This document shows, one piece after another, positions 4,201 through 61,935 of a stretch of 64,000 nucleotides of DNA. Position numbers and translations under genes: made by a program. The notes under the pieces are model-generated. The model worked only from the letters and a program-made list of their open reading frames with translations, ran no database searches and was not told the DNA's origin. Each line of letters opens with the position of its first letter. The stretch's first letter is position 1. The DNA is taken from contig NC_079219.1 of assembly GCF_029633865.1 (NCBI RefSeq), forward strand, positions 13,737,637-13,801,636, written 5' to 3'. The DNA comes from Lampris incognitus (Eukaryota > Chordata > Actinopteri > Lampriformes > Lampridae).

Positions 4201-5213
4201 AATATTTTCTGTAATGGACCGAGACATTTGATGATATCCTCAAGGTTAATACACAACCCCTATGTCAAAAACACAACAAGGCCCCTTAGCAGGTTTTTGT
4301 GATAGTATATTTGATCTCAAAATGAATATTTTTCTCTGAGTTTGACTTCTTCCACGGGGAGGTGAAAGCACATTATCAGCGTCGGAAAAAGTGCCCCTGC
4401 AGCTGGCAGGAATTCAGTCTCTTGCTCAAGGACACTTTGGAAGTTGAACCCAGGCCTTGTTTTGAAGGCCTTGTGTTTGAAGGACGGTCTCCTGAATTGT
4501 TTTCGCCACTCTTGCTTTTCTGGCTTCTGTTGTTGAAGGTGTTTTTTTGTGATTATGAGGAACAATGATTAGAAATGTCATCTGAACGTTTGTGGCTCAT
4601 AAGAGCCATCTGCTGGGCTGATACACAAACATAGAAAAATACATTATTATTATTTTCTTTAACATTTCCTGTTCTTGAAAAATAAAGTTAAACACTAGTT
4701 ATTATTGATCTGACCTGCCAACTGTATGTTGTAGAGGTAACATGTTAATGATGGTGATAAATATTCAATGCATTATGTATTTCTTTACAGTGTTTTGAGT
4801 CTCTCCAATTATATTATGCTGAAGTATAGAGTGCTGAATTGTTAAACTTTGTGAAAGTGCATACTGCAATTTAACACTAACATTTCATCCATAAATAATA
4901 TTTCAGACATTACTATCTGTCTTTGTGCACCATTGAATATTTCAAAGCAAATTGTACCACAATTGCAAGACCTACAGGGAGATATTCATGGCTCCGAGGT
5001 CATTGTGTGCCCTCATTTATGGAAGGCATCCCAACACAAGTTCTCAACAGTAAGAACCCCCCAGTATTGGAATACCACCTCAGTCAGCACTAGTATAGTT
5101 TGGATAACACTGTCTCAGTTTAGTGTCCACTTAAGACCATACTAAAAGCTGCTCTGGTGCAAACAGTCTAACTTAAGAGGGTCTTTTTCTCTCCCTGTTC
5201 GAGTTCACTGCAC
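4201..5213. other. Intergenic / 3' flank between convergent genes
   Basis: This lies between the zinc-finger gene (plus) and the dcbld1-like gene (minus), which converge here. It is AT-rich and no gene is seen. Part of it is probably the 3' UTR of the dcbld1-like gene, read on the minus strand. Confidence 0.4.
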
Positions 5214-5656
5214 TCAGAATGGCTCCTCGTATGTGTGCTGCTGTAGTAAAACAGCAGAGGACTGGGGCTTGGCATAAATCACACTGACGGGCCGTGGGCC
5301 GTTGGCATGAAGTGATGGGGTGCAGTAGCCGTTGAGCAACACTCTGTTTGAGGGACAGTCGTACTGAGCATGGCTGGATGGTGTCCTTGCGCCAGCACTG
5401 GGAGCTGGCGTGGGAAGGCCGTGTGTATTGTCATGCACAGCCACTGGAGGGCTTGGCAGGTGGGACTCAAGGGGCTGCTCAGTGAATGGCGTGGCATACT
5501 CTGGCTCAGGGGGAAGGGGCTCAGCATACTCGGGCAAGTTGCTAGGGGTGTCATAATGACTGAAGGTGAAAGGGGTGGTGTAGCCCTCCTCTGGGGTGGG
5601 CCGAAATGTTGATCCCATCTTCGTTGACGTGGCCGTCATGCCAGGCTCAGCATAGT
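5214..5656 (-). CDS. dcbld1: dcbld1-like terminal exon: YxxP-rich cytoplasmic tail
   Basis: Starts after an ACTCCAG acceptor with a split GAC codon and ends at TGA (5214-5216). It has the family signature GSTFRP, followed by repeated YxxP motifs: YAEP, YTTP, YDTP, YAEP, YATP, YDCP, YCTP and YAKP. In DCBLD proteins such motifs are phosphorylated and recruit CRK/CRKL. The stretch EYAEPLPPEPEYATPF is close to both human paralogues. Confidence 0.9.
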
Positions 5657-6792
5657 CTGGAGTGATAAATGGTCAAAACACAAATAACATTGAAATTATT
5701 TCATCACTGGTGCAGTGGCAGCTTTCACTGGTGTGGTAAGTATATGAAATAGCTGCATTGAATATCACCCCATTAACTCACTGAAGCAAAAATGCAAAAA
5801 TGAAGTCTTTGTTTCTCATGGTCTAATGTCAAGGACATGCCTTCTCAATAGCCAGTCTCATACCGGGACAACGTTGAACGCCTGCACAAGATGACTGATC
5901 ACCAACAATGTAGTCTCTAATGACAGGAATGGGGGCTGACAGCAGAGCTCTCAGTCAGGCTGAGTGGAACCCTACCGCCACCCAGATATGAGAGGGTGGG
6001 TAGTTTGGGGGCCTTAGACTCTACCCAAGATCACACAGGAAGCCTCAGAGAGGGAGCTATTTTCATTAGACAGGCTTTAGTGAGGGCTCTGATTGTCTTC
6101 GCCATTGACCCTCTGTCCTGTTTATCACTGGACCTCTCAGTGAAGGGCCCCTTTGCTGGGGAAGTGATGGGGTGGGGGGTGGGGCAGAGTAGGCTGGGTG
6201 CCCTTTATCGAGCTCCAATTAAAGGGTCTCTTTCAGAGAGGTTCTGTGGACCAAAGAAAGGAATGTTTATACTACAACTGGGTGATGGGCTGAGCCAGGG
6301 GAAAGAATGGACAGCCCATGGAGAAAGCTGTTTGCCTGTCAGAGTTGGTCTGAGCTCCTGAAACTGGCCAGTCAAGCCCAAGGACGGGAGGGGAGCAGAG
6401 TTTGAAGACTTATTGGACAGTCATGCTAACACGGCAGCCGTAGGCCTCTTACAGTTTTGCGGTGTGACTATCTTTCAGGCTTAAGTACCACAGAGAATTG
6501 ATACACCATATTCAACAAACGGCAAAAAGATGACACCGCGTGACAACTTGCTGAAAAGCCACGGTGGTTGGTTTCTTTCTGTGATGTTGTGTACTCCTTA
6601 ATTTTTCAATTGTACTGTGCTGAAAAGCCCAATTGTGAATTCTTACCATTGAGAGGGGAGTTGGGTAGAGCATCATGGACACCCCGCTCCAGAGGGTAGG
6701 AGATAAGCTCTGTCTGTGAGCAGGGGGTGCTCTTCCCCTGGAGACTCTCACAACCTGCTGGATGGGCGGACAGAAGGACGGATGGACGGACA

Positions 6793-6839
<47 letters not shown>

Positions 6840-9800
6840 CAATGACTTCCTAAGAGAAGTATGGAGAATGTTGTAAACAGGGGCCTTTATTTACCTTTGG
6901 CTAGTGAGTAATTCTTCATTTGCTCATCCTTTTTCCTAAAAGGAGAATGGTTGAAAGAAGGAGAATGGTTGAAAGTATTAGCAAACACCACTAATCTTTT
7001 GCATTTTCACGTACACTTTTGTTAGTAACCAGTGCGTGAATAAAGGAATGAGTTTCAACCCGATGTTGGTACATTATTTAACGTATTTTAATAATCCGTG
7101 CTAGGTGTAGGGTATGCAACTATTCTGAGTATAGTCGTATATGATTGGGTTAGTATCAGGCAAGCGTCCTCCATTGTAGCCAATCAGAGTGAGGCTCTCC
7201 AACACACCGGGGGGGGGGGGGCTTTGCGGCTATGTGTGGGTCGCTGAACAAGATGTTTTTTTTAATAGAAAAAATACGAAATCTAGAGAGACAGACCCGT
7301 ACTGTACGTGGAGTGAATGTGTTGCCGTCTACAAGAATCCTTTGGGACGGATTCGTGTTTCCTGGGGTGCGTCGGAGAAGGTATCCTGCTAGGAGGCGGC
7401 GAGTGACCACCAGCTAGCATGATTCCCCCGACTAGCAGTGGAGTGTTTGAAATGGTCATGGATTGAGGACATTGGAAGTCAGTGCTTCGTCGGTGCCGTG
7501 AGTTTCAGAGGAACCTTTTTCATTGTTGTAGTGTGCATGAGGCACGAAGAGGATCGTAGACAGACATTCGTGCATGAGGCTCTCTCCAGCACTAGCTTAG
7601 TACCGTACTGGATTAGCCTATAGTGCTGTAAACTACTAATAAAACACGTTAGTCCCTAGCTAACGGGTCTGACCCTTTAGCCGAGCGGTTAGTGATGTCG
7701 CCTTGTGGTGCAGTACACCCCGTATCGAATCCCGCACCGGGTGAGAAAATAGCTCGGTTACATTGGTGGCAGCGGTGGGATCCGGAAGTGTGCAGATCCT
7801 CAGAAGTCTCTTCGGAGCGCGGGAATAACAAAGCGGCGAGGGCGCGCTTCCGGGGAGGGTGACGACTGTAAACTACTAATAATACACGTTAGCTCCTAGC
7901 TAACGGGTCTGACCCTTTAGCTGAGCGGTTAGCGATGTCGCCTTGTGGTGCAGTACACCCCGTATCGAATCTCGCACCGGGCAAGAAAGTAACCGGTTAC
8001 AGTGCTGTAACGATCATGGATGAGTAGGCTCGGTAGCCCTTGGCTAGCGGGTCGGACCCTTTAGTGGACTGGTTAGCGTTGTCGCCCGCGGTGCGGGAAA
8101 TGCGGGTTCGCGTCCCGGCTGTGGAGACGGTCCGGCCGGGCTGCCCCCCTGATTCGCCGCGAACCCGTATCTCCCGTACCGCGGACGACAACGTTAACCA
8201 GTCGACCAAAGGGTCCGACCCGCTAGTTAAGGGCTAACGTGTCTTACTTTTTCGTGTACGTTACAGTACTAACCGTTAGTCTATTTGTCAGTGAAGCTAG
8301 CTAGCTCACTGGTCGTAGTGGCTCGTTAGTTCTTAATGCTGGGACTGCGCGCGTTCGGATGAACTGCTGGATGCTGAGAAGAGGACTCGGAGGACAGTCG
8401 TGTTTTTTTAGTTGTGTCAGACGGAAGATTGCTTGCCTGAGAAAAAGTTATTTCAAGAACAGTGTGAACATTGAACGCATTGCTGTTGGCGCAATCGCAC
8501 TTCTACAGTGAGTCACGTAGACTACACGCATGTCATGTGGTTTGCCCTGCCGTACAGGCGTCTCTCCAGTGGCTCATCTCGTGTGCCCAGGATTCATCAG
8601 TCTGGTATTTGTGTCAATTTCGTTATTACTCATTACTAGACTGTGTTAAAAAACGTACTGAACTGTTTATGTTTGAACCTTCATTGGTTTTGATACTCAA
8701 CATTTAGAGTGAGTTTCTCATTTGAGGTTGTGTTGATATTGTGTATACCAAGAGATAATGTGTATACAAAGAAAGTCAAACTTATGTTTTTTTGCATTTT
8801 ATTTTTTTGCTATTATCAGCCTATAGTATTACATTCAATTAATACTAAGCTGTTGTTGCCTGTTGATTCATCTTTACTGTGTTTGGACTTTAGGGTTTAT
8901 TACAATACTTACCTGAGGGTTGATAAGTATTTTGGAGTTGTGTATTTACCTTGGAGTAGGGGCGTCTCAACTGTCCTGTTAGTTCTGGGGAAGGAGGGTT
9001 ATGCTGAGTTGGATCCATAACACAGCATACACGCTACATGTCAGGGGCCGCCGTGTCAAATACCTTAGCGTGAAGCCCACCTCACGATAGGGTGTAACGT
9101 AATAACCACTCTGTTCAGTAGGATAGGCATCCACATACTTACCCACGTAGGTGCTGAGACTAAATGCATTGGGAATGGGGACCCAGATCCCTTCATTAAC
9201 CTAATCTTTCAAGGTAAATAAGTACTATTACTACCCCTACAAGGCGTGGCTTATTATGCCCGCTACATATGTAAATAACAGCGCACAGTAGTGATGGTGT
9301 TAAGTACCTTCTTTTCCACCAAACTCCAGCCAACAGACAACCGACGCACGTTATCATTCCCAGGACCACACCCACCCCGACGATTACCGGCTGACTGGAG
9401 CCTGGAAGGGCATTAGTGGGACAAGAGTGGAGAAAAAAAGAGGAACTGTTTGAGTAAATAGTGTGAGTAATGCACTTTACTGCAATGCACACAATGAGAC
9501 ATTTCGACTCTCAGAATTCACGCATCATGTGCGTAAGTTGCAGTCGGGGCTATCAGGAACTTACTTGTGTCTTTCACAAAGACCAGCCCGTCTGTGGGAA
9601 CTGGGTCGGAGCTTTCTGTGCCGATGTTAACTTTGAGGGGAGGAGATTCTGTAGAACCAGATGTACGACGATCACAAAATGAAAAACAGGGATCATACGA
9701 TGCCAGATAGAGAAGTTTACTGAAACTCACGCTCACTTGGTGAACGGGACCTGGGTGTTATTCTGGCAACAGGACAGCCCCGGAGCTGGACCTGAACTGA

Positions 9801-12800
9801 AGCTCTGCCGTGCCAGCTCAGTGGCTGCAGCCGCACGAACCGAGCCACCACAGGAGGGAACAGGCTGTTAAGAACACTCAGGTGGCCATCTGAGTGGGCT
9901 TCAAACACCTATAAACAATTAATGGCAAGTTAATCATTCACAAAAGACACTGTCCTGAACTAATAAAAGGCACTTCTCCGTTGTGAAACTGACTCCGGAC
10001 TGTTGTGCCCTTATTGAAATAAATCATCAATCCACAGCAGTGAAAATGCATACCTTTTTTTCTTTACTGAGCGCACCTTTGTAAACCTTCCAGTTCTTTC
10101 TGTCTTTGCTGAAGCGAAGACTGTAGGACTCTACGTAGAACTCATGCGATCCCGTTGTAATTATTCCTACAAATAGACAGCGTGTCGTTTTCAGTGCAAA
10201 ACTCTGAATACCCTTTTTAATGCCATGATACCAGCCATTCTAGCAGAATAAAACCATATCTGATGGAATTGTCAGGGATCAGGCACACTTTATTTGTCAT
10301 TTTATTTCATGTACTTGCGTACATGAAATGAAATGAAACATTGTTTCCCCCAGCCCACAGCAGTGCAACACCAAGACAAAAACACATATCCAAATATTAC
10401 AAGAACTACAAGAACACACATCCAAACTAACACATAAACTAACATACTATATCCAAACAAAAAAGAAAAAAAGAAATCACTGTCCAAGGGAATGAACTCC
10501 AGCCAGGATGACTGTCAGAACTGCCGGTCTGCATGGGCTATGTCAGCTCTCCCAGCCAGACACCCTCGACACACCTCCCTGCACCCCACCAAAAACACCA
10601 CAGTTAACGCCAGGCGAGGCTGCCGCCAGACCACCCCTTGGTGTTATCAGAACTGCTGGTCTGCATGGGCTAGCAGTTAGCTTAGCCTGCCCCGCTTCTG
10701 CGTCCTGTCAGACCGCCCTCGGTGTTACCTCCTCGGGCGCAGCTCCAGGCAGGGCAGTGGCCACTGGGCCCACAGGATACAGCAGACCAAGCTCCCCCGG
10801 CCGATCCAGCGCCAGCTCTCCCAGCCATCAAACAAAGACAAAACTTAGACGCAGACATGGACAAAGACACTGCATGGACAGTACTGGGTGAGGCGGCCGC
10901 AAACGTGAATGGACACCGCCATCTTCCCACACAGGTACTGGGTGAGGCCGCTGCAAATGTGAATTCATGCTGGCGTCTAAATCATTAAATCATATTATGA
11001 TATACTAGCAGAGGTACCCGGCGTTGCCCGGGGAAAATATTCTCGCCAAAACAACCAACACGATCTGATCTTTATGATATAATCGATGATGAAATATAGG
11101 ATAATCTATGATATGATACATGTGATAAACAAATGTCGAATAAACGAATGTTATTAATGAAAATGATCAAATGTCATAATTTTCAATCCATTCATTAAGC
11201 TTCTTTCCCAATGTGTGTATTAATCGCCGCAAATCCGCCACCGCAAATCGCCACAAAATAAACCCAATTTCGCAAATAAATAAACAAAATTTTACTTGGT
11301 TTTTGAAATATGTTTTGAACTGTGCAATCCTTGGAAAGTGCTGATTCTAAAGATACCTTTCTTTTTGTTCTACAATGAGTATTTCTGGAGTTCAACCCAT
11401 CCTATTGTATAGGAGCAGTGGGCAGTTGCAGCACCCTGGGACCAACTCCACTTCTTTCCTATTGCCTTACTCAGGGGCACAGACAGGAGTATTAACCCTA
11501 ACATGCCAGTCTTTTTGATGGTGGGAGGAAACCAGAGCACCCGGAGGAAACCCATGCAGCCATGGGGAAAACATGCAAACTCCACACAGAAAGGACCTGG
11601 GACGGCCTGGGGTTCGAACTCAGGGGCCCTCTTGCTGTGAGGCAACAGTGCTAACCACTCGGCCACCATGCCGCCCAGTGGTTAATGGTTAATTATTTAC
11701 AACAAACAAAACATAATTCTGTAAAAAGTCAGCTCCCGTATTCTGATGAAAGGCTCAGAGATTTTGCCCTTTTGTTACCTGCGACGGTGTTTTTGTCAGT
11801 CAGCTCCAGCTCTAGCCACGGATTTTGATCATTATTGTCTGCCGTCCAGAGTGGGAGCTGATCACCAGAATCCATGTTTCTGCGATTCAAGTACATTCTT
11901 TGGCCGTGACTATCAGTTTTTCCCCAGAAGGACGAAGCATTAAAAGCAGAGATAGTCAGGTTCCTGTTGCATTCTGTTGAAGATGGAAAGGGAGGGTACA
12001 GGAGGTCAGCGGTTACAACAACACCTAGAGGAATTTTTGTGGAATCTAACTGACATCTGTGGCACAGCGTCATTGCTTTCTTGGCAATAAGTTAACTTTC
12101 TTGTCAAGAGGTGTCATTTTTATAGCTTAAAAAAAGCACCCATTCAAATTTTTAGGTATAAATGCTCTAGCAGTATTTTAGGCTGGCTCATACCATGGCT
12201 AAACAGCAGCTTCTTTTCAGATAATGATCCCCTGTAAAAAGAAAAAAGAAAAGTCAGTTTTCTTCCATTCATTCAAACACAAACAAGACAAAAGCCTGAT
12301 AATGTCCAATTTGAGCTCATCTAAAGCTGCTTTGGGGACTTGTTTATAAAGGCCATTAGTAGTAACAGCAAACGTACATCTTGGACAGGATTCCATTGGC
12401 GAAGGTGGACTCGTAACGCGTGAGGCTTCTCCCACGAGTCAGGCTGACACGTCCTCCCAGGCTATCAGACACCACCCCGGCATGGACTGCAGACCTGCAC
12501 AGCACTGATGTCTGCAGGAGAGGGGATGTGTGGTATAATTTTTTTGGGGGGGGGGATTTTTTCTCCCCAGTTGTACTTGGCCAATTACCCCACCCTTCCG
12601 AGCCATCCTGGTCACTGCTCCACCCCCCCCTGCCGATCCGGGGAGGCCTGCAGACTACAACGTCTCCTCCGATACATGTGGAGTCGCCAGCCGCTTCTTT
12701 TCACCTGACAGTGAGGAGTTTCGCCAGGGGGGACGTAGCGCGTGGGAGGATCACGCTATTCCCCCCAGTTCCCCCTCCCTCCTGAAAAGGTGCCCCAACC

Positions 12801-17500: not shown

Positions 17501-20500
17501 CCCAAGGTTGGACAACCCCAGGGTTCGAACCCTGGACCGTCCTTGCTGTGAGGCGACAGCGCTATCCACTGGGCCACCGTGCCACCCATCCATTAAGAAT
17601 CCAGCTGAATTTCATCACAGTGAACCGTTTGGTTTACACATCATATCAAACCAAAACTAGTTTTTAAATAATACTCCTTCAAATATCATCAACATTGTGT
17701 GTCCCATTACGACAATATCCAAATTTCATCCCAGCACAATGCCACTGAGAGACGATAAACGTAAAAATTGAATTACTGTAAAGCCCCATATAGTGGTGGC
17801 CTAAAGCAAACTTACCCACGCTGGGTACCCCATTGTTGGCCATGATCACAAGTGAGCCATTGCTACAGTTGTGGCTGCTCTCGATGTCGAAATCCCCAAA
17901 CAGCAGGCGTATCACCTGACCGTGTGGCACGCGAAGCTTCCACTTGCACCAGGAGTCCATGGGGTAAGTGCCCGGGTAGTTCTGAGAGGCCAAGGTGCCA
18001 CTGTCTGTGCCAAGCACTGTGTGGCCACAGCCATTACCTGGAGCAATGATATCACAGTGAGGGTACTGACAAATACTGAGTGCAGTGAGAGGAGCTGATC
18101 ATCAACAAGACCACATTAATTTGTAGTACATCCATGATTCATACAATCCCACAACATGAGCATCCATACAAGTAAAGCATGTTGTTGGGTATTTTTGCCA
18201 TTCTGTAGTTCAATCTCTCATCATGATCCCGATTTCTTTTTGGATTTTTTCCCCCTTTTTCTCCCCAATTGTATCCGGCCAATTACCAGACTCTTCCAAG
18301 CCATCCCGCTCACCACTCCACCCCCTCTGCCGATCTGGGGAGGGCTGCAGACTACCACGTGCCTCCTCCGATACATGTGGAGTCACCAGCTGCTTCTTTT
18401 CACCTGACAGTGAGGAGTTTCACCTGGGGAACGTAGCACGTGGGAGCATCACGCTATTCCCCCCAGTTCCCCCTCCCCCCTGAACAGGCGCCCCAAACAA
18501 CCAGAGGAGGTGCTAGTGCAGCGACCAGGACACATACTCACATCTGGCTTCCCACCCGCAGACACGGCCAATTGTGTCTGTAGGGATGCCCAATCAAGCC
18601 GGAGGTAACACGGGGATTCGAATCAGCGATCCCCGTATTCGTAGGCAACGGAATAGACCGCTACGCTACCCGGACTACAACATGATACTGATTTCTGACA
18701 GGATAAAATAAACTTACACCCTATGTAAGTTGCATCCCCCCCCCCCTACTTATTAAATAGCATGAAAAAAATGGACTGGATCTTTGCTGGCAAAGACAGC
18801 TCGGCTCGTTGCGTAGGTGTGAGAACTGAATGCATGATTATCAGCGTGGGTAGAGCAGCTGGAGCCTGAGGGAGGTCCGAATTCACCACCGTTTACTCAC
18901 AGTAGACGGTGTCATCGCCAATTGTGTGAATTAAATTAAGTATTCGGGGCTTGGTAAATTCAAGTAAGATGAGTAATTAAAGTCTCCTGTTTGAACAAAG
19001 CAGAGGAAGTGAGTCTTTGGCTCATAACCGTGAGATGAGCTGTCTCTGCTTATAAAACGACATAGGGTTTAAAACGGGGCCTTATGTCGGACTTCGTAGA
19101 TCAGGAAAAAAAACCCAATTTTTCTGTTTTTTAAATTTTATTGTACAGTGCCGTCTTTACACAGCGCATACGGGATTCTACTTTTTTATTTCCATTTTTC
19201 TTTCGATTTCGAAATTTTTTTTTCTGGTAAATATTTATTTCATGAATGTGATCATGCCTACATCCTCTGATCTGCAGTGGCTGTGACTAACACCCAGATC
19301 AGAGTGGAAAAACACAATTATTTATCTGAACCGCCATGGGTCACAGACAACAGATGAGTCAAGTTTCTCAGTGGGCGCAGAGGCAAATGCTGTGTAGGTG
19401 GTGGATCAAAAACAGAGTCGACAACAACAACAAAAAAAACATCCCGGAATGGTCAAAAAAAGAGGATCAACAACAATCTGACTGAGGTAGTCAACACTCC
19501 CTGGCTTCCATATAAGGATGGTAAGGATTCGGAAAGGGGAAATGGAGGATGACCTTCCAACTTGACGAATGCCACACATCCTCCCTGTCTGAGTCCACAA
19601 GCTTTGGCTGTTATTGCACCTCCTCACGTCCCCCAAGGATTCCCTGGAAATGCCACAGCCACATGCTGTAGCCGTGGGCAACAGACCATGGATCTGTGTC
19701 ACCTTCCGGTGGGAGGCCACAGGGGCAGTATTCCTGGTAACACTGGGGAGGTGTTTTTTCCTGGGGAGGGGGATTGAGGGTTGACTTTCCTCTGTCTTCT
19801 TAGCATTGTCTATCACCTAACACCCATCTGCTAGCCAAACCATAGCATAGTTTTATAGCCAGTGAGGGACATGGTGTTTTTTGTTTTTTTTTTGAGTTTG
19901 GAAAATAAATCCACCCTGTTCCTTGGTTTGAGTCCGATTTCCTCTAAACATCTAGACCCTCTTAAAGCGTTTATTGCAAACGCATGTCTGCACCCATCTG
20001 CTCTGCCATAGGATGACATGAAATATTTGTAAGAGCTTTCCATTTTCCAGCATGCAGGGGTGATTATTTCAAATGGTTGGAATATCACCGGGGATCCGGC
20101 TGGTTGGGGGACAGGCAGACAATCAGCAGCACCTCAACAACACCGTTTTACATCTTCGGGGGTTTGCTGGCAGGTCTTTACAGGTCTAAACTGGCAGACG
20201 GGATGCTCACCTGTGCTACCTAATCACAGTACCTTATCCTCTTGTGTCAGTCACAGCGTTACAACACCATGTGGTTTTCAAATACTTTCCCCCTGGTATG
20301 TTGCCCTACCCTTACCTAATGCTTCTTTCCCAAACAGAGTCAAATGATTCAGAATAAATAATTGACCCTGGTTAATTAATTCAGTCCCTAGACAAGAAAA
20401 AAACCCCAAAACAAAACAAAAAAACAAAAACAAAATACAATATATACATATATATACACACACACATATATATACACTCACTGGCCACTTTATTAGGTAC

Positions 20501-22642
20501 ACCTTGCTAGTACCGGGTTGGACCCCCTTTTGCCTTCAGAACTGCCTTAATCCTTCGTGGCATAGATTCAACAAGGTACTGGAAACATTCCTCAGAGAGT
20601 TTGGTCCATATTGACATGACAGCATCACGCAGTTGCTGCAGATTTGTCGGCTGCACATCCATGATGTGAATCTCCCGGTCCACCACATCCCAAAGGTGCT
20701 CTATTGGATTGAGATCTGGTGACTGTGGAGGCCATTTGAGTACAGTGAACTCATTGTCATGTTCAAGAAACCAGTCTGAGATGATTCGAGCTTTATGACA
20801 TGGCGCGTTATCCTGCTGGAAGTAGCCATCAGAAGATGGGAACACTGTGGTCATAAAGGGATGGACATGGTCAGCAACAATACTCAGGTAGGCTGTGGCG
20901 TTGACACGATGCTCAGTTGGTACTAAGGGGCCCAAAGTGTGCCAAGAAAATATCCCCCACACCATTACACCACCACCACCAGCCTGAACCGTTGATACAA
21001 GGCAGGATGGATCCATGCTTTCATGTTGTTGACGCCAAATTCTGACCCTACCATCCGAATGTTGCAGCAGAAATCGAGACTCATCAGACCAGGCAACGTT
21101 TTTCCAATCTTCTATTGCCCAATTTTGGTGAGCCTGTGCGAATTGTAGCCTCAGTTTCCTGTTCTTACCTGACAGGAGTGCACCCGGTGTGGTCTTCTGC
21201 TGCTGTAGCCCATCTGCCTCAAGGTTCGACGTGTTGTGCAGTCAGAGATGCCCTTCTGCATACCTCGGTTGTAATGAGTGGTTATTTGAGTTACTGTTGC
21301 CTTTCTATCAGCTCGAACCAGTCTGGCCATTCTCCTCTGACCTCTGGCATCAACAAGGCATTTTCGCCCACAGAACTGCCGCTCACTGGATATTTTCTCT
21401 TTTTCGGACCATTCTCTGTAAACCCTAGAGATGGTTGTGCGTGAAAATCCCAGTAGATCAGCAGTTTCTGAAATACTCAGACCAGCCCGTCTGGCACCAA
21501 CAACCATGCCACGTTCAAAGTCACTTAAATCACCTTTCTTCCCCATTCTGATGCTCGGTTTGAACTGCAGCAGATCGTCTTGGCCATGTCTACATGCCTA
21601 AATACATTGAGTTGCTGCCATGTGATTGGCTGATTAGAAATTTGCGTTAATGAGCAGTTGGACAGGTGTGCCTAATAAAGTGGCTGGTGAGTGTATATAT
21701 ACACACACACATATATATGTATATTTATATAAATAAAAACAACACAAGTACTTGCATATTTCAATTTGTCCGACTGTGCCAATTTGGCCTATGGGCTACG
21801 GAGGAATAATCTGTGATTATATGTATCTCTCTGCGCGTGTGTGTGTGTGTGTGTCTGTGTGTGTGTGTCTGTGTGTCTGTGTGTGTCAGTGAATGGTCAA
21901 TGTGACTCATGCTGACCCCCTTCCTGAGCAGGGAATACTGTCATATGCTGTTTGGAATTACTGCTGATTCAGAAACCCTTTGGAAAAGGTAAGGGGATGA
22001 TTGTGTTAAGTCAGTAAACACAAACGGGACCACTCATTGTGAGATAGTGCCATGGCATCACGACTGACCATTGAACCTACATGTTGACCCCCCCCCCCCC
22101 CCGTTGAGAAACACAAGGCGCCTATGCCACCAACATCAACAGCATATTTCCTTTGGTCCACATCCCAAGACTGATACCAGAGCAATTCAAAGCTGTCGAA
22201 ACTTATGTTTTTAAATATCGTATACATCTGATAATGCTGTCTATGACAAGACACTGCTATAACTACACCTATGGAAAGAACAGCACGTAATATGTTGTCA
22301 TTGAGCTTATAACACGTGAAACAACCGACGAAAACAGCAAAAAATAAATAAATAAAATAAAATAGAAAGTAAAACGTGTTTTATTCTGCTGACCCTCGCA
22401 TGAATCCAGTCACCAGCCCCCAGCCACACGCAGCAATCTGCATCACCAACTCATAACGATGCTTGGGATGCGAGACGTGATGGCTCGGTTAAACGTTTGC
22501 CTTTCATTAAAAATGTCGACAAAATCAGATAAACCTTACCCTCCTGACCGCGGACAGCCAACGAGCAGACACAAACAACGATCCAGAAACGGGCAGCGAG
22601 AGATTTCACAGTGTCCTTTCTATATCCAGGCTTCGTAAGCAT
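5214..22642 (-). CDS. dcbld1: CUB-LCCL-discoidin type I membrane receptor (DCBLD family)
   Basis: Seventeen coding exons in transcript order: 22642-22540, 18037-17816, 15904-15767, 13409-13358, 13167-13095, 12511-12378, 12231-12194, 11973-11779, 10166-10077, 9999-9974, 9908-9731, 9648-9565, 9401-9308, 9159-9064, 6935-6895, 6754-6647, 5656-5214. Every junction has GT-AG ends and matching phase; the total is 2115 nt (704 codons plus stop). Order: signal peptide (1-34), CUB (about 35-154), LCCL (about 155-253), discoidin/FV-FVIII C (about 254-416), stalk, one membrane helix (about 449-472), cytoplasmic tail. DCBLD proteins are transmembrane scaffolds whose tyrosine-phosphorylated YxxP motifs bind CRK/CRKL SH2 domains; nine YxxP are visible here. 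The LCCL (CPAGCRNVTGD, GSLSEKKLLF) resembles DCBLD1; parts of the tail resemble DCBLD2. The family is near certain, the paralogue likely. Confidence 0.88.
5657..6646 (-). other. Last intron of the dcbld1-like gene
   Basis: No exon or transposon is recognised. The open reading in the 6000-6360 part has no splice context or family similarity. Confidence 0.5.
6647..6935 (-). CDS. dcbld1: dcbld1-like exons 15-16: cytoplasmic tail, proximal part
   Basis: Exon 15 (6935-6895, 41 nt) reads KKDEQMKNYSLAKG, the basic region after the membrane. Exon 16 (6754-6647) reads CESLQGKSTPCSQTELISY and onward, like the DCBLD1 segment ending AEFTISY. The acceptor at 6755-6756 was chosen over one 17 nt downstream because only it keeps phase. 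A (CA)n tract lies inside the intron just upstream of exon 16. Confidence 0.75.
6784..6835 (+). repeat. (CA)n microsatellite
   Basis: An (AC)-type dinucleotide tract about 30 nt upstream (in transcript sense) of the acceptor of dcbld1-like exon 16. On the transcribed strand it is (GU)n, so it could influence splicing. Confidence 0.9.
7627..8001 (+). mobile_element. TRIM-like miniature LTR retrotransposon with tRNA-like LTRs
   Basis: Two direct repeats, 7627-7762 and 7867-8001, are offset by exactly 240 bp and about 90% identical by eye. Each begins TGTAAACTAC and ends GGTTACA. The 104-bp interior starts with TTGGTGGCAGCGGTGGGAT; from its second base, 18 bases are complementary to the 3' end of cytosolic tRNA-Leu plus CCA, as I remember that tRNA, so it is a good primer-binding site. 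A purine-rich GGGGAGGG lies just before the second repeat. GTGC flanks both sides (7623-7626 and 8002-8005). No coding capacity is possible. Each LTR has TAGCCGAGCGG (A-box-like; TAGCTGAGCGG in the second) and GTATCGAATCC (B-box-like; last bases differ in the second) about 40-50 nt apart. It lies antisense in a dcbld1-like intron. Confidence 0.72.
8034..8235. repeat. Palindromic pair of tRNA-like sequences
   Basis: Two near-identical arms, about 8034-8113 and 8154-8235, are inverted relative to each other around a ~40-bp GC-rich centre. Each arm contains GCGGGTCGGACCCTTT, an A-box-like segment and a B-box-like GGGTTCGCG. The arms are related to the tRNA-like part of the neighbouring TRIM LTRs and to the copy at 23240-23350. 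The structure would fold into a long hairpin. Confidence 0.7.
8236..9030. other. Unassigned intronic sequence, possibly repeat-derived
   Basis: This part of dcbld1-like intron 14 has two short open stretches (8471-8707 and 8709-9020) with no recognisable domain. The end around 8955-9020 looks like repetitive DNA, but I cannot name a family. Confidence 0.3.
9064..9648 (-). CDS. dcbld1: dcbld1-like exons 12-14: stalk, membrane helix, juxtamembrane YxxP
   Basis: Exons 9648-9565, 9401-9308 and 9159-9064. Exon 12 is an acidic/Pro stalk (NIGTESSDPVPTDG). Exon 13 encodes the single helix (VIVGVGVVLGMITCVGCLLA) followed by the stop-transfer WWKRR. Exon 14 is 96 nt, phase 2-2, so it can be skipped without shifting the frame. 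It is Tyr-rich (STYVGKYVDAYP...GYYVTPYREVGF) and resembles the DCBLD2 YDLPYWDRAG juxtamembrane segment. Its donor (GTATTT) is weaker than its neighbours', so exon 14 may be alternative. Confidence 0.72.
9731..11973 (-). CDS. dcbld1: dcbld1-like exons 8-11: discoidin (F5/8 type C) domain
   Basis: Exons 11973-11779, 10166-10077, 9999-9974 and 9908-9731. Landmarks are NPWLELELTDKNTVAGIITTGS, then FYVESYSLRFSKDRKNWKVYK, then LFPPVVARFVRLQPLSWHG and VQLRGCP. These match the order and spacing of discoidin domains in DCBLD proteins. Exon 10 is a 26-nt microexon needed to keep phase; its donor (GTGCCT) is weak. Intron 8 carries an SVA-like composite repeat and a SINE. Confidence 0.88.
10285..10980 (-). 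mobile_element. SVA-like composite repeat (family C), copy 1
   Basis: Read on the minus strand, the 5' end has two units of about 65 bp carrying GAATTCAC, GCGGCCTCACCCAGTAC and GAAGATGGCGG. A tandem segment of about 190 bp units with GCTAGCCCATGCAGACC-type sequence follows. The 3' end has GGGCTGGGGGAAACAATG and a hairpin of ATTTC repeats (10300-10340). It is non-coding. The same architecture recurs at 28745-29805 and 30105-30915. It lies in dcbld1-like intron 8. Confidence 0.7.
11374..11685 (-). mobile_element. Family B SINE (tRNA-type head)
   Basis: Read on the minus strand it begins GGGCGGCATGGTGGCCGAG, with A box TGGCCGAGTGG and B box GAGTTCGAACCC. The body continues TTTGCATGTTTTCCCC and TTTCCTCCGGGTGCTC, and ends near TAGGATGGGTTGAAC. 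It lies in dcbld1-like intron 8. Confidence 0.8.
12194..13409 (-). CDS. dcbld1: dcbld1-like exons 4-7: LCCL domain
   Basis: Exons 13409-13358, 13167-13095, 12511-12378 and 12231-12194. They read DLISCL...HFSVYCPAGCRNVTGD...[25 protein letters not shown]...YESTFANGIL...GSLSEKKLLFSH when shortened to landmarks. The CPAGC, GYRD and AxHAGV signatures of LCCL domains are intact. Exon 4 is only 52 nt and exon 7 only 38 nt. A SINE ends about 28 nt upstream of the exon 6 acceptor. Confidence 0.9.
12542..12976 (-). mobile_element. Family A tRNA-derived SINE, copy 1
   Basis: The tRNA-like head is at the high-coordinate end: on the minus strand there is an A-box-like TAGCATAGCGGTCTATTCC and a B box GGTTCGAATCCCCG. 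The body includes CTGTCAGGTGAAAAGAAGCGG and ends in a G/A-rich tail. Flanks GGTATAATTT (12532-12541) and GGCATAATTT (12977-12986) look like a target-site duplication with one mismatch. Its 3' edge lies next to the exon 6 acceptor. Confidence 0.88.
14478..14550 (+). repeat. (CA)n microsatellite
   Basis: A nearly pure dinucleotide tract of about 36 repeats in dcbld1-like intron 3. It generates false open frames in several phases. A shorter (CA/GACA)n tract lies at 13555-13600. Confidence 0.95.
14995..15427 (-). mobile_element. Family A tRNA-derived SINE, copy 2
   Basis: Same body as the other family A copies, with poly-C expansions at 15210-15223 and 15417-15425. Flanks ACATTTGTATTTC (14982-14994) and ACATTTAGATTTC (15428-15440) are a 13-bp target-site duplication with two differences. 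Confidence 0.88.
15767..18037 (-). CDS. dcbld1: dcbld1-like exons 2-3: CUB domain
   Basis: Exons 18037-17816 and 15904-15767. Exon 2 opens with GNGCGHTVLG and includes SGTLASQNYPGTYP and the FGDFDIE motif typical of CUB domains. Exon 3 has PLCGTL and closes with SGRGFLLSYA, the conserved end of the domain. Cysteines expected for two CUB disulfides are present. The intron contains a LINE 3' fragment (16690-17130) and a SINE (17228-17588). Confidence 0.9.
16690..17130 (-). mobile_element. 3' fragment of a non-LTR retrotransposon (LINE), frameshifted
   Basis: Minus-strand translation gives RMLRAALNVSWKKHPTK, then IREQRVRFAGRCWRSEEE in one frame, and then LLWSPKRGKTRVGRPARNY plus a CPSEGL...DGDGWRERVRAI tail in another. 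This order is the C-terminal region that follows the reverse transcriptase in a common animal LINE group. Only the end of the ORF is present and a frameshift near 16930 separates the two parts, so it is dead. It sits between the two CUB exons of the dcbld1-like gene. Confidence 0.75.
17228..17588 (-). mobile_element. Family B SINE
   Basis: The minus strand starts GGGTGGCACGGTGGCCCAG with an A-box-like element and B box GGTTCGAACCC. It ends in the family tail CCCCAAGGGGATTAATAAAG, seen here as its complement at 17236-17255. It lies in dcbld1-like intron 2. Confidence 0.82.
18238..18680 (-). mobile_element. Family A tRNA-derived SINE, copy 3
   Basis: Full-length copy with tRNA-like head at the high-coordinate end. 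CATGATCCCGATTTCT (18222-18237) and CATGATACTGATTTCT (18681-18696) form a 16-bp target-site duplication with two differences. It lies in dcbld1-like intron 1, in the sense orientation of the gene. Confidence 0.92.
20475..21693 (-). mobile_element. Tc1/mariner DNA transposon, nearly intact
   Basis: The 1219-bp element is bounded by inverted repeats starting CACTCACTGGCCACTTTATT at the left and the matching CACTCACCAGCCACTTTATT (complement) at the right. It is flanked by TA, inside a (TA/CA)n stretch. The minus-strand transposase is read in two pieces, 21546-21151 and about 21150-20507. Only a single one-base frameshift near 21175 separates them. Confidence 0.93.
20507..21546 (-). pseudogene. 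Tc1-family transposase, one frameshift
   Basis: The N-terminal part (from 21546) reads MGKKGDLSDFERGMVVGARR with paired-type helix-turn-helix signatures (SISETADLLGFSRTTISRVY). The catalytic part has WSDESRF (first Asp), QQDNAPCH (second Asp) and SPDLNPIEHLW (Glu), the DDE triad of Tc1 transposases. It ends KAKGGPTRY-stop at 20507. The frame changes by one base in the HRV/LLSGKN region at about 21170-21180; no other lesion is seen. It would bind the terminal repeats and cut and paste the element into TA sites. Inferred inactive here because of the frameshift. Confidence 0.88.
22540..22642 (-). CDS. dcbld1: dcbld1-like exon 1: start codon and signal peptide
   Basis: ATG occupies 22640-22642 read on the minus strand. 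A short basic N-terminus precedes a hydrophobic core (FWIVVCVCSLAV) and a small-residue region ending RGQEG, a standard secretory signal. The donor is GTAAGG and the exon ends in phase 1. Intron 1 (18038-22539) carries a Tc1 copy and a SINE. Confidence 0.85.
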
Positions 22643-22790: not shown

Positions 22791-23239
22791 ATCTAAAGAT
22801 CCCCCGACATTCCATTTCCATATAAGGGCGAGTGGGGCTATAGGTGAATACTGATCCGAGGCCAGTGGGTCAGCCGCTGGAAGTCGTCGTAAGAAGGTTT
22901 TGAGAAGACTTCAGCGCTGATTCTGGATCTACAGTCTCTCTGCAAATTCGTACAGGCTGTTCTAAACAGCAGAAAACACCAGTCAGCCCCTGTCGTATTT
23001 TTCTGTACGTTTTGTCTCGTTATGTGCGCCACGACAACAAACACATTTCTGAAATATTTCGACGCGCACCATTACCGAAGCGCCTACACGTCTGCCAGCC
23101 GGCAAAAAGCCGCACAATCCTGCCATCTTGTGGAGAAACCCCGTCAGTGACAAACACACGTAAAGGCAACTGCATTATTTTTTGTTAGGTTTATTCCACG
23201 GCAAGTCAATATTGATAAGAAGACACGCTGGCCGCTGGC

Positions 23240-23355
23240 TGGCGGGTCTGACCCTTTAGTCCAGCGGTTAGCGACGTCTCCTGCGGTGCCGGCGGTACGG
23301 GTTCGCTTCTCGGCCGCGGCAGTTCCTGTGGTTGACGTTGTCCCCCGAATTCGCT
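23240..23355 (+). repeat. tRNA-like sequence related to the TRIM LTR
   Basis: It carries GGCGGGTCTGACCCTTTAG, an A-box-like TAGTCCAGCGGTTAGCG and a B-box-like GGGTTCGCTTC in the same order as the arms at 8034-8235 and the LTRs at 7627-8001. It lies between the divergent dcbld1-like and gmeb1-like genes. Confidence 0.6.
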
Positions 23356-23499
23356 ACAATATGAACGCTCCAGACAGGCGTTACCTTCCGCACAGCGGCG
23401 TTACCGACGTGTTACAGCTCAAGTTGTTGTATGAGGGCGAGTAATCGTTATTTTACACATTTGCGGTAATGTGGTTTTTTTTTTTTAAAAAAAAGCTTA

Positions 23500-25004: not shown

Positions 25005-34063
<9,059 letters not shown>

Positions 34064-54009: not shown

Positions 54010-54600
54010 ACAGTAATTATAATAATGATGATAATAATAATGCATTACATTTATAGAGCGCTTTATCTAGACACCCAAAGCGCTTCACAGTGAAGTGGAG
54101 AAACTCACTTCAACCATCACCAATGTGTGGCACCCACCTGGGTGATGCACGGCAGCCATTTTGCACCAGAATGCTCGCCACACATTAGCTTGAGGTGGAG
54201 AGGGAGGAAGCATTGAGCAAATTACATGGGGGATGATTAGGTGGCCAGATGGCGAGATACAGATTGGAAATTTTGCCAGGACACTCTTTGCGATAAGTAC
54301 CATGGGATCTTTAATGGCCACAGTGAGTCAGGACCTTGGTTTAACATCTCATCCGAAGGACGGCATCTCCTACAGTGCAGTGTCCCCATCACCGCACTGG
54401 GGCATTGGGATTTGTTGTTGTTGTTTTTCATTAGGACCAGAGGGAAGACTGCCCCCTACTGGCCCACCAACACCACTTCCAGCAGCAACTTAGTTTTCCC
54501 GGGAGGTCTTCCATCCAAGTACTATCCAAGTCCACACCTGCTTAGCTTCTGTCGTTCGGCAGAGCCAGGGTACATGTTGGTATGGCTGCCAGTAGACCTG
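54010..54600 (-). mobile_element. 5S rRNA-derived SINE
   Basis: The high-coordinate end holds, on the plus strand, CATCCAAGTACTATCCAAG and CTGCTTAGCTTCTG, the complement of the 5S rRNA internal promoter region (GAAGCTAAGCAGG...TTAGTACTTGGATG). The body ends at AGCGCTTTATCTAGACACCC, a widespread fish SINE segment. Diverged from 5S, so not a functional 5S gene. Confidence 0.82.
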
Positions 54601-57222: not shown

Positions 57223-57711
57223 CTGCCCTTTTACCACTCGCAGGGCAAATGCCATTAACCTCTTTTAACCCGAATTGATCCACGGGACCTCTTGGATTTT
57301 ACCCTGTCTATATCAGCCTATGTGATGGGATTAGGACTGGGTGTGGTGGTTTTTACCACCCCCCTGCCGCCGCCCCCCGCCCCACGAGACTCACCCTAGG
57401 GCAAGAATGTGAGCAAGATGAGGTCATATTGGCCAGTTTAGTGCAACAGTGTGTTACCTCCGTTGTGTCAGCCCTCCTCTACCTGCCGCTTTGTGCCTCA
57501 GATTAAACCCTTTAAACCCCTTAAGGGAGTTGCCATGGAGGCCACTCTCATCAATTGCTTTGCCTCTCATCCCGTAATGCACGGTAATGGGGGAGGGCTT
57601 TGTGCTCGCACTCACCTGTTGAAGCAACAGCGTGCACGTGTCGCTGTTGGTATTTGTGTTTGTGCTCTGAAAATATGTTCCGTGGGAATGCTGCTGGAAT
57701 ACAGCGTTTAT

Positions 57712-58995
57712 AATACATGTTCATAATACATGTTCATAATACAGTATTCATAATACATGTTCATAATACAGTGTTTCTTATACATGGTCATAATACAGTA
57801 TTCATAATACATGTTCATAATACAGTGTTTATAATACATGTTCATAATACAGTGTTTATAATACATGTTCATAATACAGTATTCATAATACATGTTCATA
57901 ATAAAGTGTTCATAATACAGTATTCATAATACATATTCATAATACAGTGTTTATAATACAGTGTTCATAATACAGTATTCATAATACAGTGTTTATAATA
58001 CAGTATTCAGAATACAGTGTTCAGAATACAGTATTCATAATACAGTATTCATAATACAGTGTTTATAATACATGTTCATAATACAGTATTCATAATACAT
58101 GTTCATAATAAAGTGTTCATAATACAGTATTCATAATACATGTTCATAATAAAGTGTTCATAATACAGTATTCATAATACAGTGTTCATAATACAGTATT
58201 CATAATACAGTGTTTATAATACAGTATTCAGAATACAGTGTTCAGAATACAGTATTCATAATACAGTATTCATAATACAGTGTTTATAAGACAGTATTCA
58301 TAATACAGTGTTCAGAATACAGTGTTCATAATACAGTGTTTATAAGACAGTATTCATAATACAGTATTCATAACTGTTTATAATACAGTATTCATAATAG
58401 TGTTTATAATACAGTATTCATAATACAGTTTTCATAATACAGTGTTTATAATACAGTATTCCCAATACAGTTTTCATAATACAGTATTCATAATAGTGTT
58501 TATAATACAGTATTCATAATACAGCATTCATAATACAGTGTTCATAATACAGTGTTTATAAGACAGTATTCATAATACAGTATTCATAACTGTTTATAAT
58601 ACAGTATTCATAATAGTGTTTATAATACAGTATTCATAATACAGTTTTCATAATACAGTGTTTATAATACAGTATTCCCAATACAGTTTTCATAATACAG
58701 TATTCATAATAGTGTTTATAATACAGTATTCATAATACAGTATTCATAATACAGTGTTCATAATACAGTGTTTATAAGACAGTATTCATAATACAGTATT
58801 CATAACTGTTTATAATACAGTATTCATAATAGTGTTTATAATACAGTATTCATAATACAGTATTCATAATACAGTGTTTATAATACAGTATTCATAATAC
58901 AGTATTCATAATACAGTGTTCATAATACAGTGTGTATAATACAGTATTCATAATACAGTGTTTATAATACAGTATTCATAATACAGTGTTCATAA
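57712..58995. repeat. AT-rich minisatellite, 14-bp monomer with 216-bp higher-order period
   Basis: About 1.28 kb of variants of ATTCATAATACAGT / GTTTATAATACAGT / GTTCATAATACAGT. GTTTATAAGACAG recurs at 58338, 58554 and 58770, exactly 216 bp apart, each followed by the same ordered variants (including ATTCATAACTGTTTATAATA and ATTCCCAATACAG). Confidence 0.95.
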
Positions 58996-61113: not shown

Positions 61114-61935
61114 AGTACGGTGGCGCGGTGGTTAGCACGGTTGCTTCGCAGCAAGAAGGTCCTGGGTTCGAGCCCCGGGGTAGTCCAACCTTGGGGGTCG
61201 TCCTGGGTCGTCCTCTGTGTGGAGTTTGCATGTTCTCCCCGTGTCTGTGTGGGTTTCCTCCGGGTGCTCCGGTTTCCTCCCACAGTCCAAAGACGTATAG
61301 GTCAGGTGAATCGGCCATACTAATTTGCCGCTAGGTATGGGCGTCCGGGTAGCGTGGCGGTCTGTTCCGTTGCCTACCAACACAGGGATCTCCGGTTCGA
61401 ATCCCCGTGTTACTGTCGGCTTGGTCGGGCGTCTCTACAGACACAATTGGCCGTGTCTGCGGGAAGGAAGCTGGATGTGGGTATGGGTCCTGGTTGCTGC
61501 ACTAGCGCCTCCTCTGGTCGGTTGGGGGCGCCTGTTCAAGGGGATGGGGAAATTGGGGGAATAGCGTCATCCTCCCACGCACTACATATCCCCGGTGAAA
61601 CTCCTCACTGTCGGGTGAAAAGAAGCGGCTGGCGACTCCACATGTATGGGAGGAGGCATGTGGTAGTCTGCAGCCCTCCCCGGATCAGCAGAGGGGGTGG
61701 AGCAGCGACCGGGACGGCTTGAAAGAGTGGGGTAATTGGCCGGATACAATTGGGGAGAAAAAAAGGGGGGGGGATTTGCCCCTAGGTATGAATATGTGTG
61801 TGTGTGTGGGGGCCCTGTGTGATGGCCTGGCGACCTGTCCAGGGTGTCTCCCCGCCTTCCGCCCAGTGACTGCTGGGAGAGGCTCCAGCATCCCCGCGAC
61901 CCCGAGAGCAGGATGAGCGGTCGGGATAATGGATG
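61114..61935 (+). mobile_element. Family B SINE interrupted by a family A SINE
   Basis: Head TACGGTGGCGCGGTGGTTAG with B box GGGTTCGAGCCC runs to 61322. After the insertion it resumes at 61791 and continues to GGATGAGCGGTCGGGATAAT and GGATGGATGG. Confidence 0.88.
61340..61773 (+). mobile_element. Family A tRNA-derived SINE, copy 7, nested
   Basis: Starts GGCGTCCGGGTAGCGTGGCG with B box CCGGTTCGAATCCCCG. The 17-bp flanks ATTTGCCGCTAGGTATG (61323-61339) and ATTTGCCCCTAGGTATG (61774-61790) differ at one base. Confidence 0.95.

Follow-up and report, generated by a model that had tools for sequence, protein, structure and literature searches.

We analysed a 64,000-bp window of the Lampris incognitus genome (NC_079219.1, positions 13,737,637 to 13,801,636), in which repeat analysis revealed a 375-bp element at 7627-8001 consisting of two long terminal repeats (LTRs) around a 104-bp interior, with a repeat spacing of exactly 240 bp (Table 1). 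The ungapped core of the direct repeat is 126 bp with an identity of 93%, and the two LTRs differ at 10 of 135 aligned bases and by one gap. A first-pass annotation had described two TG...CA repeats with the same spacing, interior length and GTGC flanks, and both its coordinates and its anatomy proved right. The purine tract that it placed before the second repeat, GGGGAGGG, is also present, but seven mixed bases (TGACGAC) separate it from the 3' LTR, so that it does not abut the repeat. No stop-to-stop frame of at least 110 aa overlaps the element, in agreement with the earlier statement that it can encode no protein, and no structure signal was obtained for the interior (fold z -0.3). The element thus has the features of a TRIM, namely two LTRs, a primer site, a purine tract, a length below 1000 bp and the lack of a protein.

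Table 1. Features of the analysed window, in window coordinates.
Feature	Position	Strand	Remarks
Target-site duplication, left, GTGC	7623..7626	.	same as 8002-8005
5' LTR	7627..7762	+	TGTAAAC...GGTTACA, 136 bp, TG...CA
Box A-like TAGCCGAGCGG	7678..7688 (LTR position 52)	+	exact to the consensus TRGYNNARNNG
Box B-like GTATCGAATCC	7722..7732 (LTR position 96)	+	two mismatches to the consensus GGTTCGANTCC
Interior	7763..7866	+	104 bp, non-coding; starts with a single spacer T
Primer-binding site TGGTGGCAGCGGTGGGAT	7764..7781	+	complementary to the 3'-terminal 18 bases of mature tRNA-Leu(AAG)
Polypurine tract GGGGAGGG	7852..7859	+	identified from the sequence; putative role
3' LTR	7867..8001	+	135 bp, TG...CA
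Target-site duplication, right, GTGC	8002..8005	.	same as 7623-7626
Fold-back (palindromic) family-C LTR, TGTAACG...CGTTACA	8006..8265	.	260 bp, flanks GTGC/GTAC, directly after the right GTGC
CUB domain	17679-18098	-	Pfam
Tc1-like transposase fragments	20507-21597, 31910-32284	-	Pfam
Old diverged family-C LTR relic	23211..23358	+	75-79% identity to the window LTRs, the 8006-8265 arms and the L005/L012 LTR
5S rRNA match	54477-54593	-	58.8 bits; gene, pseudogene or SINE3 head
Tandem repeat, 14-bp unit	57698-58995		about 95 copies
tRNA-Ser(CGA)	61135-61221	+	ARAGORN

Two further frames on the minus strand of the window, 11729-12091 and 5214-5672, had no Pfam match. Together with the CUB domain frame, they look like parts of a DCBLD-type gene, in which case the TRIM would sit in an intron of this gene.

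When the 375-bp query was searched against the 1.48-Gb host genome, 2,558 first-look candidates were obtained, of which the best 40 were scored; these are the copies nearest to the window copy, which is among them, and not a random sample. All 40 begin at query position 1, and 39 of them span 1-375 and one spans 1-373, with identities of 94-100%. Exact 4-bp duplications flank 31 of the 40 copies, and nine have no exact duplication, five of these being one base off. Since the flanks of L028 recur in L029, L030 and L046 and those of L037 in L038, the scored copies represent 36 independent sites. The duplication is exact at 27 of these 36 sites, as compared with a mean of 1.2 and a maximum of 7 in 2,000 permutations. 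It was also found that the duplicated sequence prefers the form NTAN, a central TA being present in 19 of the 27 exact duplications versus 5.6% of background 4-mers. The divergence between the paired LTRs averaged 4.5% (range 1.5-7.4%) over the 40 copies, with the window copy at the old end. Exact matches to an internal 21-mer and to an LTR 21-mer numbered 2,164 and 4,066 genome-wide, respectively, and the reversed-pattern controls gave none; the resulting LTR:interior ratio of 1.88 is not itself a sign of surplus solo LTRs and is unusable as a solo-LTR count.

Solo LTRs were observed individually. One LTR of the window family (family A), with TAAA on both sides (L060), was the sole family-A LTR in a sample of 20 regularly spaced 10-kb pieces (200 kb in all, GC 44.5%), and a second one, with TATG on both sides, lies beside an array at L069:2200-2334. 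At 5176-5314 of the latter locus, a family-C start appears by eye to be joined to a family-A end in a chimaera without a duplication. Arrays with three full LTRs are present at L010 and L034, and L021 has a partial third LTR. The genome search that the first-pass annotation had suggested thus yielded thousands of copies, of which the 40 scored begin and, but for one, end at the same positions and mostly carry 4-bp duplications, and two solo LTRs that also carry such duplications. Copies with other end positions, a lack of solo LTRs or a duplication confined to this locus, which would have spoken against its reading, were not what was found, because copies with the same ends recur together with solo LTRs and arrays. 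These data, together with one helper candidate described below, bear out the assignment as a TRIM-type LTR retrotransposon. Pattern scans of IMG/VR gave no match.

The 18-base primer site is exactly complementary to the end, with CCA added, of a host tRNA-Leu(AAG) gene detected by ARAGORN at L085, as expected from the earlier proposal of a tRNA-Leu primer. ARAGORN runs over the 200-kb sample and three loci detected no tRNA. The primer site followed by a non-C base occurs at 225 genome sites, L080 and L082 being among the sites listed, and one locus out of these 225 sites, seen in two pieces (L086 and L087), was examined as a helper candidate. At this locus (C1:48086323, L086), 29 bases, CTCGGTTACATTGGTGGCAGCGGTGGGAT, are identical to window 7753-7781 and cover the LTR tip, the spacer and the primer site; 19 of the 29 belong to the spacer and primer site and are expected in any user of the same tRNA-Leu. 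Apart from the LTR tip with the primer site, the helper piece seen contains no long identity, and the helper LTR body gave no BLAST match to the TRIM LTR over the 149 bp examined. This LTR fragment contains AATAAA and has no A/B boxes. The first open frame downstream of the LTR had no Pfam match, while a frame 2 kb downstream (L087) matched RVT_1 (E 2.9e-9) and reads by eye like a Ty3/Gypsy reverse transcriptase. It is thus likely, as judged from these sequences, that the Ty3/Gypsy-like element at C1:48086323 is the helper of the TRIM. An autonomous partner with the same LTR ends and tRNA-Leu site, which the first-pass annotation had called for, is accordingly represented by one candidate locus with 29 shared bases and an RVT_1 frame.

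The consensus sequences of the Pol III promoter boxes A and B are TRGYNNARNNG and GGTTCGANTCC. The box B-like sequence of the LTR agrees with 8 of the 10 specified bases, and the starts of the two boxes are 44 bp apart, which is a tRNA-like spacing. Of 2,000 shuffles, 19 attained the best A+B score of the 5' LTR, as did 19 of 1,872 equally long pieces of the window, and 82 of 2,000 shuffles attained that of the 3' LTR; the box A used in this scoring was one base too long, so that box A is understated. The LTR was not recognised as a tRNA by ARAGORN or by the Rfam tRNA model, even with a relaxed E-value. The earlier claim of a tRNA-like A/B-box module in the LTR therefore holds for the exact box A and the spacing, but it is weakened by the two mismatches in box B and by the 1-4% of shuffles that score equally well. 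The two off-consensus bases of box B are shared by at least 97% of the 72 LTRs sampled, while box conservation in family A (0.975 and 0.982) is hardly above that of other stretches (0.965-0.979) and gives no clear signal.

The evidence that the module is real lies in the relatives, subfamily B and family C, whose sequences argue in its favour. Subfamily B is one element with two LTRs (L031:878-1264) and CTAG on both sides. Its primer site is retained, as is most of its interior, of which 96 of 115 columns are identical to the window interior (10 columns are one insertion, and 104 are TRIM bases). From box A to box B, its 5' LTR is identical to the window LTR at 45 of 56 columns versus 33 of 52 upstream, and its 3' LTR at 44 of 56 versus 34 of 56 upstream, in a comparison that draws on the two LTRs of this single element. 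Its box B is GGATCGAATCC, and its box A has a mismatch. Family C (L005 and L012) has a different LTR body with a similar module, in which box B, GGTTCGCGTCC, lies in a similar place and has one mismatch. The primer sites of family C are close to TGGTGTCAGAAGTGGGAT, which we take to fit tRNA-Leu(CAA). The box B core is GTATC in family A, GGATC in subfamily B and GGTTC in family C. On the sense strand, TTTT is absent from 35 of the 36 independent family-A copies and AAAA is present in 34. A TTTT-free sense strand would fit read-through by RNA polymerase III, and it is weak evidence because about half a TTTT is expected by chance according to a rough hand estimate.

The right GTGC of the TRIM is directly followed by a palindrome, the halves of which are inverted copies of the family-C LTR; its 87-nt arms are 86% complementary (fold z -19). 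A weak Rfam match of this segment to VA RNA (32 bits versus a cut-off of 62) was attributed to a chance resemblance, as the segment forms a long hairpin. A genome search with 8006-8265 gave 5,228 candidates, and among the 40 that were scored, nine other fold-back sites matched most of the query on both strands. In eight of the nine, both ends are TGTAAC or deviate from it at one to two bases; L071 is truncated. A family of palindromes built on a single fixed junction is ruled out, as the centres differ: L073 includes the LTR end and most of the primer site before it turns back, L077 and L078 reach the first few primer-site bases, and L074 and L076 end earlier. A purine tract lies on one side of L070, L073, L075, L076 and L077, as it does for a 3' LTR, and L072 consists of two TRIMs in mirrored arrangement. 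L074 and L076 have identical flanks on both sides (host sequence on C14 and C18); L074 is the palindrome alone, and L076 consists of an LTR, an interior and the palindrome at these common flanks. By eye, L078 lies within a larger inverted repeat of its own flanks, and this arrangement speaks for a rearrangement at that site. Three fold-backs without a purine tract lie between near-duplicated 4-mers with one mismatch each (GTGC/GTAC in the window, GTAT/TTAT and GTAT/ATAT), an agreement that is weak evidence because NTAN is preferred. Fold-back LTRs thus recur and behave like LTRs, and their origin may lie either in reverse transcription or in later rearrangement.

The window TRIM is separated from the fold-back LTR by one 4-bp duplication (8002-8006). 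The subfamily-B copy likewise lies at a distance of one 4-bp duplication from an older tRNA-LTR element (L031:874-878), and by eye the same spacing separates a TRIM from a diverged family-C LTR at L010:875. This stacking is most simply explained if the NTAN duplicated by an older insertion serves in turn as a preferred target.

The 3' end of tRNA-Leu, GGTTCGAATCCCACCGCTGCCA, has seven exact matches in the genome, one of which is the called tRNA-Leu(AAG) gene at L085. After an LTR end (..GGTTACAT), L080, L082 and L084 carry 26, 27 and 31 contiguous bases, respectively, complementary to mature tRNA-Leu with CCA included, and beyond these other or inverted element sequence. At L083, 31 such bases follow an end that is unlike the known LTR ends. 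The L085 gene continues with GATC, so that CCA is unencoded in the one gene seen; a copied mature tRNA-Leu primer would therefore explain these junctions best. They may also derive from an unusually long ancestral primer site. L079, a tRNA-like fragment without CCA, and L081, with an incomplete CCA, were not counted among the primer-copy junctions, and a tRNA-Leu called at L084 by ARAGORN under other settings was read as a chimaera. As a separate observation, the sequence AGTCTCTTCGGAG of the TRIM interior (window 7805-7817) also occurs in the tRNA-Leu-like variable-arm fragment at L079, which may be chance. At L084, the TRIM interior and a tRNA-Leu-like fragment are fused at AGTCTCTTCGGAG, and L085 and the TRIM interior share only a 10-mer, located elsewhere.

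Animal TRIMs with tRNA-like LTRs, fish elements included, have been described as Helenus (Kojima 2024, PMC10886601). According to the accessible part of that paper, Helenus elements are 311-1263 bp long and carry an A/B-box module in the LTRs, the animal members make 4-bp duplications, the vertebrate members use tRNA-His, -Leu or -Lys as a primer, and a Gypsy helper was proposed from primer-site similarity. The zebrafish element LTR-11_DR has 5,575 LTRs and 2,618 interiors and occurs in tandem arrays, and one interior is identical between zebrafish and goldfish families (PMC10886601). The window TRIM resembles Helenus in its tRNA-like LTR, 4-bp duplications, tRNA-Leu primer and arrays, in a primer site common to a Gypsy-like element (29 bases at one locus), and in an interior better conserved than the LTR (family A versus B). 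In Helenus, a box B with GGTTC is conserved, outside the definition given in the paper, and the tRNA origin was traced with Censor and tRNAscan-SE (PMC10886601). Family A differs in having GTATC instead of this usual GGTTC, which is found in family C. The NTAN preference, the stacking and the primer-copy junctions are absent from the examined text of PMC10886601, and 'palindrom' and 'inverted' do not occur in its main text. Cassandra is a plant TRIM that lacks genes, carries a Pol III promoter module in its LTR and forms short tandem arrays of about three LTRs, as far as the examined text goes (PMC7215508), and it is the only validated member of the Pol III-promoter kind of TRIM according to Kojima 2024 (PMC10886601). 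Its module is of 5S rRNA type, whereas the window TRIM is an animal element with a tRNA-like module, and of the two it is Cassandra for which transcription has been shown. The first-pass annotation suggested an animal counterpart of such TRIMs, which was correct, but this kind had already been published as Helenus. The window TRIM is therefore a new family, with two relatives, of the Helenus kind, as far as a comparison by description goes.

We consider it highly probable that the element is a Helenus-type TRIM, for which the following cycle is proposed. The 5' LTR would give rise to an RNA whose start probably lies at the tRNA-like module and which would thus probably be made by RNA polymerase III. 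The RNA would be taken up by proteins of the Ty3/Gypsy helper, and mature tRNA-Leu(AAG) would prime the minus strand at the complementary 18-base site, with the purine tract presumably priming the plus strand. The helper integrase would then insert the DNA at NTAN and generate the observed 4-bp duplication. LTR-LTR recombination would be the route to the solo LTRs and three-LTR arrays that are present in the genome. The TRIM is gene-less, and none of the observations requires it to serve the host.

An ordinary Pol II TRIM, derived from a Gypsy relative by deletion, in which the A/B resemblance is coincidental and transcription starts at a TATA-like stretch in U3, is possible but doubtful. It would account for the two mismatches in box B, for the 1-4% of shuffles that match the A+B score, for the lack of a structural tRNA match with ARAGORN and Rfam, and for an AATAAA in the 5' LTR. 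However, in 81% of 72 LTRs this AATAAA has G as its last base, and A/B boxes are missing from the 149-bp helper LTR fragment. The diverged family C keeps GGTTCGCGTCC with one mismatch in a similar place, subfamily B has GGATCGAATCC, and the missing TTTT in 35 of 36 copies points weakly in the same direction.

Two other explanations concern the nature of the element itself. tRNA-derived SINEs (SINE2) are short, non-coding and equipped with an A/B-box module, as is the window TRIM, and the two 135-bp tandem repeats with a module typical of SINEs might suggest such a SINE in repeated form or a local tandem duplication. Either is practically inconceivable, being refuted by the genome-wide copies: the 40 scored copies have the same start and 39 the same end, 31 have exact duplications, and TG/CA ends, a primer site and two solo LTRs with the same end bases are present. 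Unlike SINE2, the window TRIM moves as an LTR element, as is shown by its LTRs and primer site, by the 4-bp duplications and by the solo LTRs. A DNA transposon with inverted ends is suggested by 8006-8265, a palindromic unit with TGTAACG/CGTTACA ends and near-duplicated 4-mer flanks. This is very improbable, as the palindromes are built of LTRs that at other places (L005, L070, L072, L073, L075) lie next to primer sites and purine tracts, and their centres differ.

With its thousands of genomic copies, the TRIM described here allows Helenus to be tested independently, and the structure, the duplications, the solo LTRs and a helper candidate with a common LTR tip and primer site all hold. It also offers material for testing Pol III transcription of these LTRs and the recognition of a TRIM with an unrelated LTR body by its helper. 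We further suggest, tentatively and as a reading somewhat less likely than not, that the fold-back LTRs and the 26-31-base tRNA junctions are integrated by-products of aberrant reverse transcription, in which strong-stop DNA was extended past primer base 18 or snapped back, LTR termini at both ends having allowed insertion. If this is true, intermediates in the replication of a retroelement without genes would be preserved in the genome, and with them a physical trace of the use of the primer. The fold-back LTRs and primer-copy junctions could reveal how the reverse transcription of such elements fails.
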